DNA from: a virus
Virus record (IMG/VR): IMGVR_UViG_3300010318_000035
Location: 1-27,692 of that record
DNA length: 27,692 nucleotides
Strand: one strand, 5' to 3'
Shown: positions 2,316 to 27,692 of the stretch, in pieces
Position numbering within the stretch: position 1 is the first letter of the stretch
Layout: the number at the start of each line of letters is the position of its first letter
Made by a program: the position numbers and the translations under genes
Notes under the pieces: model-generated
Database searches by the model: none
What the model was told of the DNA's origin: nothing
What the model saw: only the letters and a program-made list of their open reading frames with translations

Positions 2316-5300
2316 ATGTCAAAGACAGAATTATCAGGAAAACAAGTAAAAGACGGTAGTGTTCAACGTGTTGATTTAGATGTAAGCACATCTGGTCAAG
2401 CTGTTACTACTAAAATTGTTGCTGGTGATAACATTAGTTTATCCTCAACTGGTGTAGATGCTGGTACTGGTGATGTTACAGTTAGTTTAGGTGGAACTAT
2501 AGCTAGTGATATAGCTTCTTTACAATCTGCTGATACAGCATTACAAGCTGAAGTAGATGCGGTTGAAGCTGATGTTGCTTCTTTACAATCTGCTGATACC
2601 ACATTACAAGCTAACATTGATGCTGAAGCAAGTGCAAGAGCATCTGCTGATACAGCATTACAAGCTGAAGTAGATGCGGTTGAAGCTGATGTTGCTTCTT
2701 TACAATCTGCTGATACAACTCTTCAAGCTAACATTGATGCTGAAGAATCTGCTCGTATTGCTGGTGATGCTTCAACTTTGGCATCTGCTCAAAGTTATGC
2801 AGATACTGCTGTTGCTGGTATTGTTAATTCTGCACCAGAAACTTTAGATACATTAAATGAACTTGCGGCTGCATTAGGTGATGATCCTAATTTTGCTACA
2901 ACTATTTCAACACAAATAGGACTTAAAGCTGATAGTTCATCATTAGCAACTGTAGCTACAAGTGGTGATTATAACGATCTTATAAACACACCTTCTGCTG
3001 GTGCATCAGATCTTGATGGACTTAGTGATGTTACATTAACTTCATCTGCTAGTGGAGAATTCCTAAAATATAGTGGCTCTGGTTGGGTTAATAGTAATAC
3101 TATAAATGCAAGTGCATCTAAAAGTGGTTTAATAATACAAACTGCTTCTGCTGTAACTGGTGAGGGAGAAGATGCGTTTTTAGTTAAAAATTCATCTAAT
3201 GCAACCAAATTTAAAGTAAGAGTTAGCACTAATGCCGCAAATAATTATATAATTATTGGTGACAAATTAGGTATTGGTAGCAACGAGAGGCCATCGGCAC
3301 AAATAAGTGCACATGCGGCTTCTGGATCATCAATTTTTCAAATGACTCAAGGGGTAGAAGGCCCTACTTATGAGAATGGTTTTAGAATAACATATAATGG
3401 AACTGATGTTATACAAAAGTTGCTTCCTGCAAGTGGTACAATTAAATTTTATACTGGTGGCGGCAATACCAACAGATTTCAAATTGCTTCTAATGGACTT
3501 GTAACTTCTCTATATGGGATGGTTGTTAATTCAGGAAGTGATGCAACTAAAGCATTAATTGTAAAGGGATCTTCTTCTCAAACTGCAAACTTACTTGAGA
3601 TACAGAATAGTGCAGGAACTGCTATCGCAAACATATCCGCTGCTGGTGAGGGAACATTTAATACAGTTAAAATTGGATTAGGAACTGGAGCTGTAGAAAC
3701 AAACACTGCTGTAGGATTTAACACACTTGAAGGATATGATGCCGGAGTGGGAGGTCTATGGGGTAGAAACGTTGCATTAGGATACCAAGCTGGCGCAAGT
3801 ATGTCTTACAGTGTAGCTATTGGATACAACGCACTTCGTGGAACAATGTCTGCTGGCTCAGGCAACAACGTAGCCGTTGGTTCGTCTTCTCTTTCAAATA
3901 TTACGACAGGAACTCACAATGTTTATATCGGAAGTCAAGGAAACGGTAATGCGAGTGCTTGTACTACAGGCGCAAGCAACGTAGCAATCGGCTCTGGAGC
4001 ATATACATTAACAACAGTTAGTAACTCTATAGCAATAGGTCGAAGCTCCTCGGCGGGTGCAAGCTCAAGCACCGTTGTAGGATACTCTGCAAATTCGGCT
4101 TCAACCGCACCAGAGTCTGTTGTAATTGGAAAATCAGCATCTGCCAGTGATGAACAATATAGCGCAGGTCGCTCTGTAGCTATTGGTAGTGGTGCAAGTG
4201 CAACGGGAGCTGACTGTGTTGCTCTTGGATTTCAAGCAACTTCGGGTTACTATGGACTTGCTATAGGACGTGCTGCAAATGCCGCTGCAAATTGTCTTAG
4301 CATTAGATTTGGTAATGCCAATCGCATCATCGGAGACGCAAATGGTCAAATAGGTATCAATGAAGCAGCACCTGGCGCACAGCTACAAGTAACCTCCGGA
4401 GCTGCTGCTAGAAAAGGTCTTATTGTCAAAGGTGCCGCATCACAAACTGCAAACTTGTTTGAGACACAGAATAGTGCAGGAACTACTTTATTCTCTGTTG
4501 ATAAAGATGGAAGTCTTTCTGCTGGAACAATTCCAGTAGCTCGTGTTGATGGTCTTTCTACTGTTGCAACTTCGGGTGATTATAACGATCTTATAAACAC
4601 ACCTTCTGTTGGTGCATCAGATCTTGATGGACTTAGTGATGTTACATTAACTTCATCTGCTAGTGGAGAATTTTTAAAATATAATGGTACTAATTGGGTT
4701 AATAGTAGCTTGCCTGAAGCTAGCAGTAGCGTCGCTGGCATAGTAACTACTGGAACACAAACATTCGCTGGCAAAAAAAACTACACAACATCTTCTGCAT
4801 CCGATACTCCTTTGACAATTACAAGACCAGCATCAGCAGATAACTATGGTCTTGTCGTAAGAAATAGTTCAAATATGCGATTGGTTGGTATCGGTAGAGA
4901 TGCTAATTATTCTGGCGGTCATAATTATGATAGCTCTGTGAGCCCTGCTTTAATTGAAATAGGATCTACTCGATATGGTCATGCAACACTTGCATATAAT
5001 GAGACTCAGGACACTTTGTCCATATTATCAAAATCATCAACCAATGTCCTTGAACTGGTTCCTGAAGATGGAGGATATGGTTTAACTAAATTAACTATTG
5101 TAAGAGCCCCATCATTTACTGCAAATGTGGGTAAATGGAATTTTAATGTTCAGCATCCTGTTGGCTCTGCTGGTGCAATTAACTTTAATGCCTATAATGG
5201 TGTAAGTATAAATCTTGCTGACTCTGATGCATTGGAAGGGAGTTTCCATGTTAAGTCAAATGCTTCAACAAGAAAAGGTGTTATAGTTCAAGCACATGCT

Positions 5301-14230: not shown

Positions 14231-14785
14231 ATGAGTGATGATATTATAAAAAAATACGAATCAAAAGAAAATCAATTTATAGCAACTGAAGAAGATTTAG
14301 AATCTATTAAGTCTGTTGCCGTAGATGAGTCTAAAGAAAAAACTATTAAGCCAGAAATAGCAGATCCTGAAATAAAAAGAGGTGAATTCAAATCTACCGA
14401 AGTTTCAATAAATCGTATAGATGAGTTTGAAGAAAAACAATTAGCATTACCTCCAGAAACAGCAGATGATTTAAAAACTGATTATCAATATGTTAGAACT
14501 AACATCTATACAATCACAGAAAGATCTATAGAAGCATTAAATAACTTAGTTCAGATTGCAGATCAAAGTCAACATCCAAGAGCATATGAAGTGGTTGCTA
14601 CCCTTGTGAATAGTATAGCATCTGCTCAAAGAGATCTAATTAATGCTCATAAGGAAAAAGCAAAGATAGAAGGTAATGCTAAGAAAAATTCTCCTGATGT
14701 TGTAAATAATAATCTATTTGTGGGCAATACTGCACAATTAGATGAAATTATAGCTAATATGAGAAAGAAAGAGGAAGATGAGTAA
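14231..14785 (+). CDS. gp16: Small terminase subunit gp16
   Basis: 184 residues against 164 in T4. The C-terminal half (LKTDYQYVRTNIYTITERSI, EALNNLVQIADQSQHPRAYE, VVATLVNSIA, RDLINAHKEK) matches the conserved coiled-coil core of T4-type small terminases, which form rings that regulate gp17 and recognise DNA for packaging. The N-terminal 70 residues are charged and variable. It overlaps gene 17 by 8 nt; no good ribosome-binding site is visible, so coupling to upstream translation is likely. Confidence 0.85.
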   Translation: MSDDIIKKYESKENQFIATEEDLESIKSVAVDESKEKTIKPEIADPEIKRGEFKSTEVSINRIDEFEEKQLALPPETADDLKTDYQYVRTNIYTITERSIEALNNLVQIADQSQHPRAYEVVATLVNSIASAQRDLINAHKEKAKIEGNAKKNSPDVVNNNLFVGNTAQLDEIIANMRKKEEDE

Positions 14786-23780: not shown

Positions 23781-25076
23781 ATGTACCTTACTGAAGAACT
23801 ACAAAACAAATGGGAAAAGGTGTTAAATCATCCTGATTTACCAGAAGTTCGTGATGCACACAAAAGGGCAGTATTAACTGTTCTTCTTGAAAATCAAGTA
23901 AATGAAGCAAAGAAATCTAGTATGACGATTACTGAGGCTGCTCCAGCAAACTCTGGTCTAGCAACACCTAGCACAAGTCATACTAATGCAAATATGGCTG
24001 GTTATGATCCAGTTTTGATTTCTCTACTTCGTCGTGCGCTACCAAATTTGATGGCGTTTGATGTTTGTGGAGTTCAACCTATGAAAGCTCCAACTGGACT
24101 CATATTTGCTATGAAGAGTAAGTATTCGACTCAAGGAGGAACTGAAGCACTACACGACGAAGCTCTTACATCTCATTCTGGTACAGGATCACATGCTGGT
24201 GGTGCTGATCCATTTGATGCGGCTTTAAGTTCAGGTACTGGATTGGGAACAACTGCTGGAGAAGCATTGGGGACAACTTCAGCTCCTGCTGGTGGAGTAT
24301 TTCAAGAAATGGCATTCAGTATCGAGAAGGTTTCTGTAGAAGCTAAGACTCGTGCTTTGAAAGCTGAATACTCAATGGAACTAGCACAAGACCTTAAAGC
24401 TGTTCATGGTCTTGATGCAGAAACTGAACTAGCAAACATTCTTTCTGCTGAAATTTTAGCAGAAATCAATCGTGAAGTAGTTCGTACCATCTATCAAAGT
24501 GCTGTTACAGGTGCTACGACAACTGCTACTCCTGGAACTTTTGACCTAGACGTTGATTCAAACGGTCGTTGGTCTGTTGAAAAGTACAAGGGGTTGATGG
24601 TTCAAATTGAAAGAGAAGCAAATGCGATTGCTAAGACTACTCGTAGAGGACGTGGAAACATTCTCATCTGCGATAGTGATACGGCAAGTGCTTTGAGTGT
24701 AGCTGGACTTCTTGATTGTGGTTCTGCTCTCAAAGACTCTCTCTCAGTAGATGATACTGGAAACACTTTTGTTGGTGTATTAAATGGACGTTTCAAAGTT
24801 TACATCGATCCATTTGCTCCACTTGGAAGCCACTTTATGGTTTTAGGCTTCAAGGGTGCAAATCAATATGATGCTGGACTATTCTACTGTCCTTATGTAC
24901 CTCTACAAATGGTTCGTGCAACTGACCAAGATTCTTTCCAACCAAAAATTGGATTTAAGACTCGTTATGGTCTAGTAGCAAATCCATTCTCGACTGCATC
25001 TGTTACTCAAGGTGCTGGTCTGAAAGATGGTGCTAATAACTACTACAGAAAGGTTAAGATTACTAACTTACTCTAA
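23781..25076 (+). CDS. gp23: Major capsid protein gp23
   Basis: 431 residues against 521 in T4; cyanophage gp23 proteins are similarly short. Characteristic segments are TEELQNKWEKVLNHPDLPEV, LLRRALPNLMAFDVCGVQPM, PTGLIFAMKSKY, KAEYSMELAQDLKAVHGLDA and KIGFKTRYGLVANPF. The sequence MTITE/AAPANSG gives a probable gp21 cleavage site after E52, fitting the (L/I)xE rule for removal of the N-terminal delta domain. Arginine is coded mostly by CGT (12 of 16) rather than AGA, unlike neighbouring genes, which suggests selection for high expression. A strong ribosome-binding site precedes it and a terminator follows it. Confidence 0.95.
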   Translation: MYLTEELQNKWEKVLNHPDLPEVRDAHKRAVLTVLLENQVNEAKKSSMTITEAAPANSGLATPSTSHTNANMAGYDPVLISLLRRALPNLMAFDVCGVQPMKAPTGLIFAMKSKYSTQGGTEALHDEALTSHSGTGSHAGGADPFDAALSSGTGLGTTAGEALGTTSAPAGGVFQEMAFSIEKVSVEAKTRALKAEYSMELAQDLKAVHGLDAETELANILSAEILAEINREVVRTIYQSAVTGATTTATPGTFDLDVDSNGRWSVEKYKGLMVQIEREANAIAKTTRRGRGNILICDSDTASALSVAGLLDCGSALKDSLSVDDTGNTFVGVLNGRFKVYIDPFAPLGSHFMVLGFKGANQYDAGLFYCPYVPLQMVRATDQDSFQPKIGFKTRYGLVANPFSTASVTQGAGLKDGANNYYRKVKITNLL

Positions 25077-25102
25077 TTCTGAAGTAGTATAATATATCAA
25101 AT

Positions 25103-25134
25103 AAAAAAGGGAGCCTTTATGGTTCCCTTTTTTT
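25103..25134 (+). terminator. Strong rho-independent terminator after gp23
   Basis: GGGAGCC (25109-25115) pairs with GGTTCCC (25121-25127), with one G-U pair and a TTTAT loop, flanked by A6 and T7. The flanking A and T tracts would let it act on both strands. It separates the capsid operon from the next transcription unit. Confidence 0.9.
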
Positions 25135-25191
25135 ATAGTTAAAATTGTAAGTTATTTTTATTATTATCTTTTTTTATAAAATATATTTTTC

Positions 25192-25221
25192 TTGACAGAG
25201 TTTGTATTATGTGTATATCAT
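25192..25221 (+). promoter_or_regulatory. Host sigma-70-type promoter
   Basis: The -35 box TTGACA (25192-25197) is perfect, and the -10 box TATCAT (25216-25221) matches 5 of 6 with an 18-bp spacer. It follows the gp23 terminator and faces the gp3-like, protease, uvsY and uvsW genes. It is probably an early promoter used by unmodified host polymerase. Confidence 0.65.
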
Positions 25222-25226
25222 AAATA
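25219..25226 (+). promoter_or_regulatory. Late promoter CATAAATA overlapping the host-type -10
   Basis: A NATAAATA match that shares bases 25219-25221 with the sigma-70 -10 box. It forms the loop of an 8-bp inverted repeat, GTGTATAT (25211-25218) / ATATGCAC (25226-25233, one G-U pair). Confidence 0.55.
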
Positions 25227-25259
25227 TATGCACTATAATAATATCACATAATAAATCAA

Positions 25260-25817
25260 ATGGCAACAGTAGATACCAGAAATTTTCAACCACCATTAAA
25301 TTTTGAGTTTGCAGTAGACAAACTAACTGACTTTAATTATTTTGTACAAAAAATAAATGTTCCTGATTTAAGTATAGGGCTTGCAAATAATGGTGGTGCT
25401 ACACCATTTTCACAAATTGCTTATACTGGAGATCATCTTGGATTTGGTGATCTTTCTATAGATTTTAAAGTTAATGAGGGTATGTATAACTGGTATGAAA
25501 TATTTTCTTGGATGCAGGGCATAGGTTTTCCAGAAAATATAGATCAATATGGAAAATTAAAAAGTGGAACAATACCAGATTTAAATGGAGATCTTCCATT
25601 AAAAGTAATACCACAAAGAACTCATGGTTTAATTTATGGTCAAGGAACATTAATAATAAACTCAAGTCAAAATGAGCCTGTATTAAAAATTTCTTTTATA
25701 GATATGCACCCAATATCTTTAGGTGAGCTATCTTTTGACACTAGAGAGAGCGACGTTTTATATGCTACAGCATCAGTAACTTTTAAATATGATTACTATA
25801 CAGTTGAAAAACTATAA
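25260..25817 (+). CDS. gp3: Tail tube-fold protein, probably gp3-like tail completion protein
   Basis: 185 residues against 176 in T4 gp3. The pattern FEFAVDKLTDFNYFVQKINV, LSIDFKVNEGMYNWYEIFSW and the C-terminal MHPISLGELSFDTRE...VTFKYDYYTVEKL is that of the tube-protein fold shared by gp19, gp3 and gp54. Size and position after gene 23 and before uvsY/uvsW, as in T4-like cyanophages, favour gp3, which ends the head-proximal tube. A second tube-like protein such as gp54 is less likely because of length. It has no clear ribosome-binding site and a 27-34 nt leader from the promoters upstream. Confidence 0.6.
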   Translation: MATVDTRNFQPPLNFEFAVDKLTDFNYFVQKINVPDLSIGLANNGGATPFSQIAYTGDHLGFGDLSIDFKVNEGMYNWYEIFSWMQGIGFPENIDQYGKLKSGTIPDLNGDLPLKVIPQRTHGLIYGQGTLIINSSQNEPVLKISFIDMHPISLGELSFDTRESDVLYATASVTFKYDYYTVEKL

Positions 25818-25830
25818 TAGGAGATTGTAA

Positions 25831-26187
25831 ATGTCAAAGAATAAAGTAACAAGAAAAATACCAAAAAGAATAAAAATAGGTTATTCAAATTTTAAAATAA
25901 TACCAAGATCCAAACATTGGGGCATTAGAAATAAAGCATATGGAATGTGTGAGCCAGAAAATGCTAAAATACAATACAATAATAACTTGAAAAAAGATGA
26001 ATTAGTTAATACAATACTACATGAAGTAATACATGGCATTGTATATATGTATGATATACCATTTAAAAATATGAAAGATGAAGAAAGTGTTGTGAGAAAA
26101 TTAGCAAATGGATTACATACCGTATTTAAAGATAACCCAAACTTTTTAGAATGGATTGCACAAAATTCAAATAAAAAAGATGATTAA
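25831..26187 (+). CDS. Small zinc metallopeptidase-like protein (HExxH)
   Basis: 118 residues; ATG preceded by TAGGAG. The motif TILHEVIHGIVYMYD gives HEVIH at 64-68, with DEESVVRKLANGL downstream (E84/E85 as a possible third zinc ligand) and the ending NPNFLEWI. This layout fits small HExxH proteins found in many phages and bacterial genomes, related in style to SprT/ImmA-type peptidases. The substrate is unknown. The N-terminus is very basic (KNKVTRKIPKRIKIG). It follows the gp3-like gene by 13 nt and overlaps the next gene by 8 nt. Confidence 0.6.
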   Translation: MSKNKVTRKIPKRIKIGYSNFKIIPRSKHWGIRNKAYGMCEPENAKIQYNNNLKKDELVNTILHEVIHGIVYMYDIPFKNMKDEESVVRKLANGLHTVFKDNPNFLEWIAQNSNKKDD

Positions 26188-26434
26188 CGATATACCAGAT
26201 TGGGTGTTTAAACTTAAAAAGGGTGATCATTTAATGATCACATTTCCATATACTAATGAGATTTTATTTGCTGAAGTTGTAGAAAATATTCCACAAGAAT
26301 TATACAGTTCATATATAGGAATACTAACAGTTAATTATATTAATAAGTTTACAAGACATGAAGATTTGTTGTATGATGATTATGCGTTAAATGGAACTAG
26401 CTTTAGTAGCTGGTATGCATATCAAGTGGTTTAA
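26180..26434 (+). CDS. Hypothetical protein between the peptidase and uvsY
   Basis: 84 residues from the ATG at 26180, which overlaps the previous stop by 8 nt, an arrangement also used at gp16/gp17. An upstream TTG at 26156 would add 8 residues but lies deeper inside the peptidase gene and is less likely. The sequence (INDIPDWVFKLKKGDHLMIT, FPYTNEILFAEVVENI, YALNGTSFSSWYAYQVV) is not one I recognise; it looks like a small beta-rich domain. It ends 2 nt before uvsY, so it is in the same operon. Confidence 0.6.
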   Translation: MINDIPDWVFKLKKGDHLMITFPYTNEILFAEVVENIPQELYSSYIGILTVNYINKFTRHEDLLYDDYALNGTSFSSWYAYQVV

Positions 26435-26436
26435 TT

Positions 26437-26868
26437 ATGAAATTAGAAGAAATTGAAGCTCTCTGGGAGCAAGATTCAAAAATAGATAGAACTGATTTAG
26501 ATAACGAAAGTCTAAAAATACCAAATTTACATAGCAAATATTATAAAATATATTTAAGAGAAAAGGTTCAGTTAAAATCTGAAGAGCAAGAGTATAAGCA
26601 ATACTATAAAGTAAAATATGAATATTATACTGGAAAAATGTCACAAGAAGAACTACAAGAACATGGATGGGAACCATTTCAATTTCTTTTAAAAAATGAT
26701 CTTCAAGTGTATATAGATTCCGATGCAGATATTTCAGATAGATTATTGAAGCTACAAGTTCAAAGAGAAAAAGTAGATTTATTAGAAAGTATAATAAAAA
26801 CATTAAATACTCGTGGCTTCTTAATAAAAAATGCTGTAGACTTCATTAAATTTACTAGTGGTAACTAG
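26437..26868 (+). CDS. uvsY: Recombination mediator UvsY
   Basis: 143 residues against 137 in T4. The start MKLEEIEALWEQDSKIDRTD, the central KYEYYTGKMSQEEL, and the end IIKTLNTRGFLIKNAVDFIK-FTSGN match T4 UvsY segment by segment (YTGR, IKSRGFAIKHAIEMRKFEAG in T4). UvsY loads UvsX recombinase onto gp32-covered single-stranded DNA for recombination-dependent replication and repair. Position next to uvsW, in the same direction, is as in T4. No separate promoter is visible, so it is probably read from the 25192 promoter. Confidence 0.9.
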   Translation: MKLEEIEALWEQDSKIDRTDLDNESLKIPNLHSKYYKIYLREKVQLKSEEQEYKQYYKVKYEYYTGKMSQEELQEHGWEPFQFLLKNDLQVYIDSDADISDRLLKLQVQREKVDLLESIIKTLNTRGFLIKNAVDFIKFTSGN

Positions 26869-26900
26869 TTAGTTCATCCAAAAACTACTATTTTTATCAA

Positions 26901-26908
26901 TATAAATA
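26901..26908 (+). promoter_or_regulatory. Late promoter TATAAATA of uvsW
   Basis: Exact consensus 39 bp before the uvsW ATG; the expected start is about 26914, just past the 5' arm of the hairpin at 26902-26945. T4 uvsW is also under late control. Confidence 0.75.
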
Positions 26909-26945
26909 TCCACAATATGAACACATTCCATAAGTGGATATTTGT
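26902..26945 (+). promoter_or_regulatory. Hairpin masking the uvsW ribosome-binding region
   Basis: AAATATCCAC (26904-26913) pairs perfectly with GTGGATATTT (26934-26943), extended by one G-U and one A-U pair to 12 bp, with a 20-nt loop. The 3' arm covers the 5-14 bases before the uvsW ATG (26948). Because the late promoter overlaps the 5' arm, only read-through RNA can form this stem. Confidence 0.7.
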
Positions 26946-26947
26946 TA

Positions 26948-27692
26948 ATGGAAAAAATTGTTGTAAAAAAACATAATGAAGTTTATATCAGTGTAGATAC
27001 ATCTTCATCAATACATAGAGAACTTTCCGACTTCTTTAAGTTTAAAGTGCCGGGCTATCAATTCATGCCAGCATATAAAATGAGAATATGGGATGGCTTC
27101 GTGCGTTTATATAATATGATGAATGGTCATATATATTATGGTCTTTTACCATATATACAAAAATTCTGCGAATCGAGACAATACCATTTAGAAATAGAAC
27201 CACAGCTTTTGGAAAAAAATTCTTTTTCAGAAAAAGATTGTGAAGATTTTTTAAAGACATTAGAACTACCATTTGAAGCAAGAGAATATCAAATAAAAGC
27301 AATACATAATGCAATAAAAAATAATAGGTCATTATTAGTATCTCCCACTGGTTCTGGCAAAAGTTTAATAATATACTCTTTGACAAGATATTACAACAAA
27401 AAAACATTAATTATTGTACCTACAATATCTCTTGTGTCTCAAATGTTTTCTGACTTTAAAGAGTATGCAAAGAATCAGCCACAATACCATGTAGATAAAG
27501 TTTGTCATCCAATTTATAGTGGAAAAGAAAAAATAACAGATAGTAATGTTGTAATATCTACATGGCAGTCAATTTATAAATTATCTAGAAAATGGTTTGA
27601 GCAGTTTGATGTTGTAATAGGAGATGAAGTTCACCTATTTAAAGCAAAATCATTAACTAGCATAATGGAAAAGTTGGATAAAACAAAATATC
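26948..27692 (+). CDS. uvsW: RNA-DNA / branch-migration helicase UvsW, 3'-truncated
   Basis: 248 codons are visible and the frame is open to the window end; T4 UvsW has 503 residues. The N-terminal part (FFKFKVPGYQFMPAYKMRIW, DGFVRLYN, YGLLPYIQKF) matches the UvsW substrate-recognition domain. It is followed by a superfamily 2 helicase core: EAREYQIKAIHNAI, Walker A SPTGSGKS (132-139), IIVPTISLVSQM, and DEVH (226-229). In T4 it unwinds R-loops and branched DNA, shutting off origin replication in favour of recombination-dependent replication. A late promoter and a masking hairpin precede it. Confidence 0.92.
   Translation, partial: MEKIVVKKHNEVYISVDTSSSIHRELSDFFKFKVPGYQFMPAYKMRIWDGFVRLYNMMNGHIYYGLLPYIQKFCESRQYHLEIEPQLLEKNSFSEKDCEDFLKTLELPFEAREYQIKAIHNAIKNNRSLLVSPTGSGKSLIIYSLTRYYNKKTLIIVPTISLVSQMFSDFKEYAKNQPQYHVDKVCHPIYSGKEKITDSNVVISTWQSIYKLSRKWFEQFDVVIGDEVHLFKAKSLTSIMEKLDKTKY

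Follow-up and report, generated by a model that had tools for sequence, protein, structure and literature searches.

Described late switches and the uvsW locus of T4

In phage T4, R-loops prime replication at origins, and their removal by the late helicase UvsW helps the change to recombination-dependent replication. A late promoter drives synthesis of this protein, and UvsW removes the R-loops at origins (PMC3016281). In T4, uvsW and uvsY converge, with segE ahead of uvsW, and early uvsY RNA therefore does not run through uvsW. In the part of the T4 uvsW leader that was folded, no hairpin overlapping a late box stood out. A start-masking switch is described for other T4 genes, namely e, soc, 49 and I-TevI: the start is sequestered in read-through RNA, while a late promoter located in the region of the 5' strand of the hairpin yields an RNA devoid of that arm (PMC3014915). 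Promoters within hairpins are also found in early or middle operons, in the leaders of the homing endonuclease genes I-TevI, I-TevII, I-TevIII, segB and mobE (PMC2988022). Late promoters of T4 are numbered with the first T of the box at -13 (PMC2988020). Cyanomyoviruses have a published NATAAATA late motif, and for them combined early/late promoters, known from RB49, have been proposed (PMC2984593).

Here we analyse the uvsW locus in a 27,692-nt stretch of viral DNA (positions 1 to 27,692 of IMG/VR record IMGVR_UViG_3300010318_000035, hereafter the window). An earlier note on this DNA had proposed that a late promoter is built into a hairpin covering the uvsW ribosome-binding region, and had invoked T4 genes e, soc and 49 as precedents. 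As in T4, a predicted late promoter precedes uvsW; in contrast to T4, uvsW lies co-directionally behind uvsY. The parallel with T4 holds for the mechanism only, not for T4's own uvsW arrangement.

Genomic context of uvsW in the window

Among named phages, Pelagibacter phage HTVC008M and the Methylophilales phages Melnitz have the closest major capsid proteins, with 57-60% identity along the whole protein. A DNA search against named phages gave no close match to the window. At the end of a T4-like structural block, the genes are arranged in the order gp23, gp3-like, SprT-like, small orf, uvsY and uvsW (Table 1). The gp3-like gene is syntenic with the annotated tail completion protein/gp3 gene of HTVC008M and phiM12. 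Between this gene and uvsY, positions 25831-26187 hold an SprT-like or metallopeptidase-like gene (PHROG peptidase, 8.5e-5; Pfam score slightly below the cut-off), and most loci of the clade defined below have an ORF of similar size at this place. Directly 3' of gp23, the segment 25103-25135 (AAAAAAGGGAGCCTTTATGGTTCCCTTTTTTT) resembles an intrinsic terminator; it was not among the predictions of a consensus scan. In HTVC008M, Melnitz and phiM12 the next gene follows close behind uvsY, and this gene is uvsW in the latter two. In Melnitz, a late sigma factor gene lies directly 3' of uvsW.

Table 1. Genes and predicted control elements of the gp3-uvsW region, in window positions
Feature	Position	Strand	Evidence
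Sigma70-like promoter of gp3-uvsY operon (TTGACA, 18-nt spacer, TATCAT)	25192..25221	+	11/12 consensus matches
Putative late-promoter box CATAAATA of gp3-uvsY operon	25219..25226	+	motif; overlaps -10 of sigma70-like promoter
First operon gene, tail-tube-like protein in gp3 position	25260..25817	+	PHROG tail tube 1.9e-23
uvsY	26437..26868	+	Pfam UvsY 2e-26; PHROG UvsY 3.8e-38
Putative late-promoter box TATAAATA of uvsW, positions -13 to -6	26901..26908	+	sequence; late motif 25-46 nt before uvsW in 17/17 clade loci
5' arm of predicted masking hairpin, in read-through RNA only (ATAAATATCCAC)	26902..26913	+	fold
Predicted late transcription start, first base 3' of 5' arm	26914	+	T4 late-promoter numbering (PMC2988020)
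3' arm of predicted masking hairpin (GTGGATATTTGT), 2 nt before uvsW ATG	26934..26945	+	fold
uvsW helicase gene, truncated by window end	26948..27692	+	Pfam UvsW_N 2.2e-14, ResIII 2.2e-25

A late box overlapping a hairpin at the uvsW start

The box before uvsW has the features of a T4-like late promoter: it is of the TATAAATA type, and no TTGACA-like -35 hexamer was found upstream of it. With the T4 register, +1 of the late RNA is placed immediately behind the 5' arm of the hairpin, and the arm would thus be removed from late RNA. The stem comprises 10 perfect pairs (26904-26913/26934-26943) extended by one U-G and one A-U pair to 12 bp, and closes a loop of 20 nt. The uvsW ATG occupies 26948-26950 and its weak SD-like GGA (26936-26938) sits within the 3' arm. 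From the uvsY stop codon it is 79 nt to this ATG and 33 nt to the 5' arm, a distance at which terminating ribosomes should not melt the hairpin. Folding of 101 nt gave -20.4 kcal/mol, compared with a mean of -11.3 kcal/mol for shuffled sequences (z -3.3; 1 of 200 shuffles as good). Over 26934-26953, the mean unpaired probability is 0.20 in the read-through RNA and 0.52 in the late RNA. The overlap of box and 5' arm, the length of the stem, its position just before the ATG and a predicted start near 26914 are all as the earlier note had them.

Late boxes were also searched across the window, and their placement is not random. The motif ATAAATA is found on the + (coding) strand in 13 of 14 cases, and 11 of these 13 stand 15-81 nt upstream of a gene start; the genes so preceded include the homologues of gp18, gp19, gp20, gp22, gp23 and gp3. 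In the segment 14217-14231, the gene starting at 14231 has a late box just 14 nt ahead of its ATG, and a nearly leaderless late mRNA is predicted for it.

A fused promoter upstream of the gp3-uvsY operon

In the interval 25060-27000, the top-scoring sigma70-like site is the host-type promoter that the earlier note had placed at 25192, which recurs in relatives. Its -10 hexamer shares bases with a late box, forming a fused early/late promoter (Table 1). The same layout, TTG...-N17/18-TATCATAAATA (also written TTGA..-N17/18-TATCATAAATA) or a close variant, precedes gp3 in 13 of the 14 clade loci with sequence at this place, the exception being L091; it is absent at the gp23 and uvsW promoters. 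The promoter thus resembles the overlapping early/late promoters of RB49 and the cyanomyoviruses (PMC2984593) in combining sigma70-type and late elements, but differs from them in the constant register in which its -10 hexamer overlaps the late box (13/14 loci). These features suggest that the gp3-uvsY operon is plausibly read both early and late. A scan of 25060-27000 for + strand terminators found none between this promoter and uvsW. Given the fused promoter and this result, the gp3-uvsY RNA would be expected to extend into uvsW.

Predicted accessibility of the uvsW start

For the read-through and the late RNA, we computed the cost of opening the region from -18 to +5 around the ATG. In the window, loss of the 5' arm lowers this cost from 16.9 to 5.9 kcal/mol. 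The start region is predicted to be paired in the longer transcript, as in T4 e, soc, 49 and I-TevI. Across the 17 loci of the clade described below, the read-through RNA costs 8.3-23.9 kcal/mol to open and the late RNA is cheaper in every case, by 4.1-17.3 kcal/mol (mean 10.4). The mean difference for 27 other late-promoter leaders of the same genomes is only 1.6 kcal/mol (Mann-Whitney p=1.6e-7 against the clade, kinship between loci being ignored). In a shuffle test that likewise ignored the relatedness between loci, the value of 14 of the 17 loci was reached by at most 4 of 200 shuffles; L089, L090 and L092 individually do not beat their shuffles (42, 26 and 32 of 200, respectively). In a scan of nine genome pieces, uvsW had raised values throughout, unlike every other gene family represented in many of the pieces.

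The result holds when the start is shifted within -1 to +3 nt and when longer flanks are used. The 5' arm of L087-L089 starts only behind the box; the late RNA would thus retain part of the arm, whose removal would be partial. The difference in these three loci depends on the exact start, and it falls to nearly nothing when the start is moved upstream.

Isolated cases of strong predicted masking were seen at other late promoters, namely those of regA (L202 15560 (-)), of the portal gene (L208 12843 (-)), of gp5-like and gp25-like baseplate genes (L196 1441 and 4297), and of the gene for an unassigned membrane-like protein in two genomes (L193 12530 and L201 2941 (-)). The gp3 leader of L091 (1434-1468) also shows strong predicted masking.

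The uvsW leaders of related phages

Related loci were collected solely through the similarity of their UvsW proteins, blind to the leader. The window's UvsW belongs to a monophyletic clade (support 100/99) of 17 loci with 59-78% identity, comprising the window's own (L001, the window sequence), L002-L007 and L083-L092. In all 17, the motif [AC]TAAATA stands 25-46 nt before the uvsW ATG, and the stem includes or abuts this motif and reaches the start codon. Among 253 distinct uvsW leaders surveyed, 236 lie outside the clade, and 224 of these are devoid of such a late motif within 70 nt. Three later scans of the collection returned known clade members and none that was new and had a leader, while enlarging the outgroup.

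The stem sequences differ entirely among the clade loci, as exemplified by TTAAGCATATAAA/TTTATATGCTTAA in L007, and the median identity of the leaders is only 48%, which indicates that pairing is kept despite sequence turnover. Clade leaders are too diverged to be aligned, and column-by-column covariation was uninformative; no variable pairs were present in the consensus fold of the closer pairs L085/L086 and L087/L088. The support from relatives is thus that each leader folds its own hairpin and that pairing persists while the sequence turns over. The comparison of homologous leaders that the earlier note had called for supports its reading through the recurrence of hairpin and late motif with largely different stems.

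A second UvsW clade comprises L093, L101, L117/L128, L130, L138, L154, L166 and L055/L065 together with a few relatives that have no motif (support 100/100). In the loci named, the late box stands 11-14 nt before the uvsW ATG and, in L117, directly after the uvsY stop codon. At T4 spacing, this position would place the late mRNA start at the ATG or within about 2 bases of it, making the mRNA nearly leaderless.

Alternative explanations of the hairpin

The hairpin could mainly be an RNA processing or stability element, such as an RNase III- or RNase E-type site or a stabiliser of the uvsY 3' end, that separates the uvsY and uvsW mRNAs. A long stem between two cistrons could serve in this way, and this role would be compatible with masking. 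However, the stem is tied to the uvsW start and not to the uvsY stop: it ends 0 to a few nt before the ATG and even contains it in L091, whereas the uvsY-uvsW gap varies from 38 to 783 nt across relatives. Moreover, its consistent overlap or contact with the promoter box is not needed for processing. We consider this explanation improbable.

Alternatively, the palindrome might be recognised by a translational repressor, for example RegA, or, at the DNA level, by the late RNA polymerase. Many T4 starts are targets of RegA (PMC3014915) and a RegA homologue is present in the clade, but stems and loops whose sequences are not conserved, only pairing and position being retained, speak against a binding site of this kind. 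This makes recognition by a protein less probable still.

Chance is a further possibility, as a late box in an AT-rich leader may happen to pair near the start codon. The GC content of the window is 33%, and TATAAATA occurs in it 7 times against 5.8 expected, which is not above chance. Against such a coincidence stand the hairpin and motif found in every clade locus despite diverged leaders, the small average difference of other late-promoter leaders in the same genomes, and the z value of the window's fold. The earlier note had thought an origin by chance from AT-richness less likely, and after the comparison across relatives we regard it as very unlikely.

An intrinsic terminator ending uvsY transcripts before uvsW would suit a stem located between genes, but is hardly credible for one that is followed by TTAATGG instead of a U tract, that the + strand scan did not report, and that in relatives extends up to or into the ATG. 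Equally hard to credit is a palindrome arising as a by-product of overlapping divergent late promoters, a layout apparently present before uvsW in Proteus phage phiP4-3 (TATAAATA...TATTTATA between the divergent inh and uvsW genes): on the - strand the 3' arm of the window reads ACAAATATCCAC, which holds no late box, and the genes upstream of uvsW are co-directional both in the window, where this gene is uvsY, and in the other clade leaders. In L183/L184 (~3926-3961), which are of the phiP4-3 type, the apparently overlapping divergent late promoters additionally give a hairpin across the uvsW leader.

Proposed timing of UvsW synthesis

A temporal switch combining promoter and hairpin probably explains the layout of uvsW, and this reading of the leader as a masking switch is supported by the sequence comparisons above. 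Layout, fold and clade conservation are read directly from the sequences; from these we infer which promoters are used and where the late RNA begins, as well as read-through, repression of translation and timing. A polymerase initiating at the fused promoter (25192-25226) early, and also late, would transcribe the gp3-like gene, the SprT-like gene, the small orf and uvsY, and continue into uvsW. In this long RNA the two arms would pair and hide the uvsW ribosome-binding region, leading to little UvsW. Late in infection, a gp55-type polymerase would initiate at the late promoter whose own sequence specifies the 5' arm, and the RNA beginning at about 26914, without this arm, would be translatable. 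UvsY would thus be made from early on and UvsW only late.

The predicted mechanism is that of the switch known from T4 e, soc, 49 and I-TevI, here on a new gene and in a new lineage. As at T4 gene e, the start region would be masked in the long RNA and the late RNA would be devoid of the 5' arm. The locus differs from gene e in the gene concerned, in belonging to an uncultured lineage nearest to HTVC008M and Melnitz by capsid protein, in its weak SD, and in a stem sequence that is not conserved among relatives. In contrast to the homing endonuclease leaders of T4-like phages, which control selfish elements, the hairpin of the window precedes a core recombination and replication helicase gene. 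We found no description of a start-masking switch at uvsW in the mostly open-access literature that was searched, and an earlier description is possible.

Our data point to a core replication-recombination helicase placed, in a distant lineage, under a structurally conserved late switch. The 17 loci would represent natural variants of one switch in which the sequence has turned over and the logic is retained, and they could be tested with reporters. That such a switch occurs at uvsW far from T4, in a seemingly early/late operon behind uvsY, suggests selection on UvsW timing well beyond T4. More tentatively, we envisage as possible rather than probable that in one T4-like lineage the uvsY-uvsW junction, ancestrally tight, was opened a single time and took up a gp55-only promoter with a hairpin kept by selection on pairing alone, which would imply strong selection against early UvsW, and that the near-ATG box of the second clade is an independent acquisition by uvsW of its own promoter. 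If this scenario is true, T4-like replication would generally require UvsW to be kept out of early expression, and this would not be peculiar to T4.
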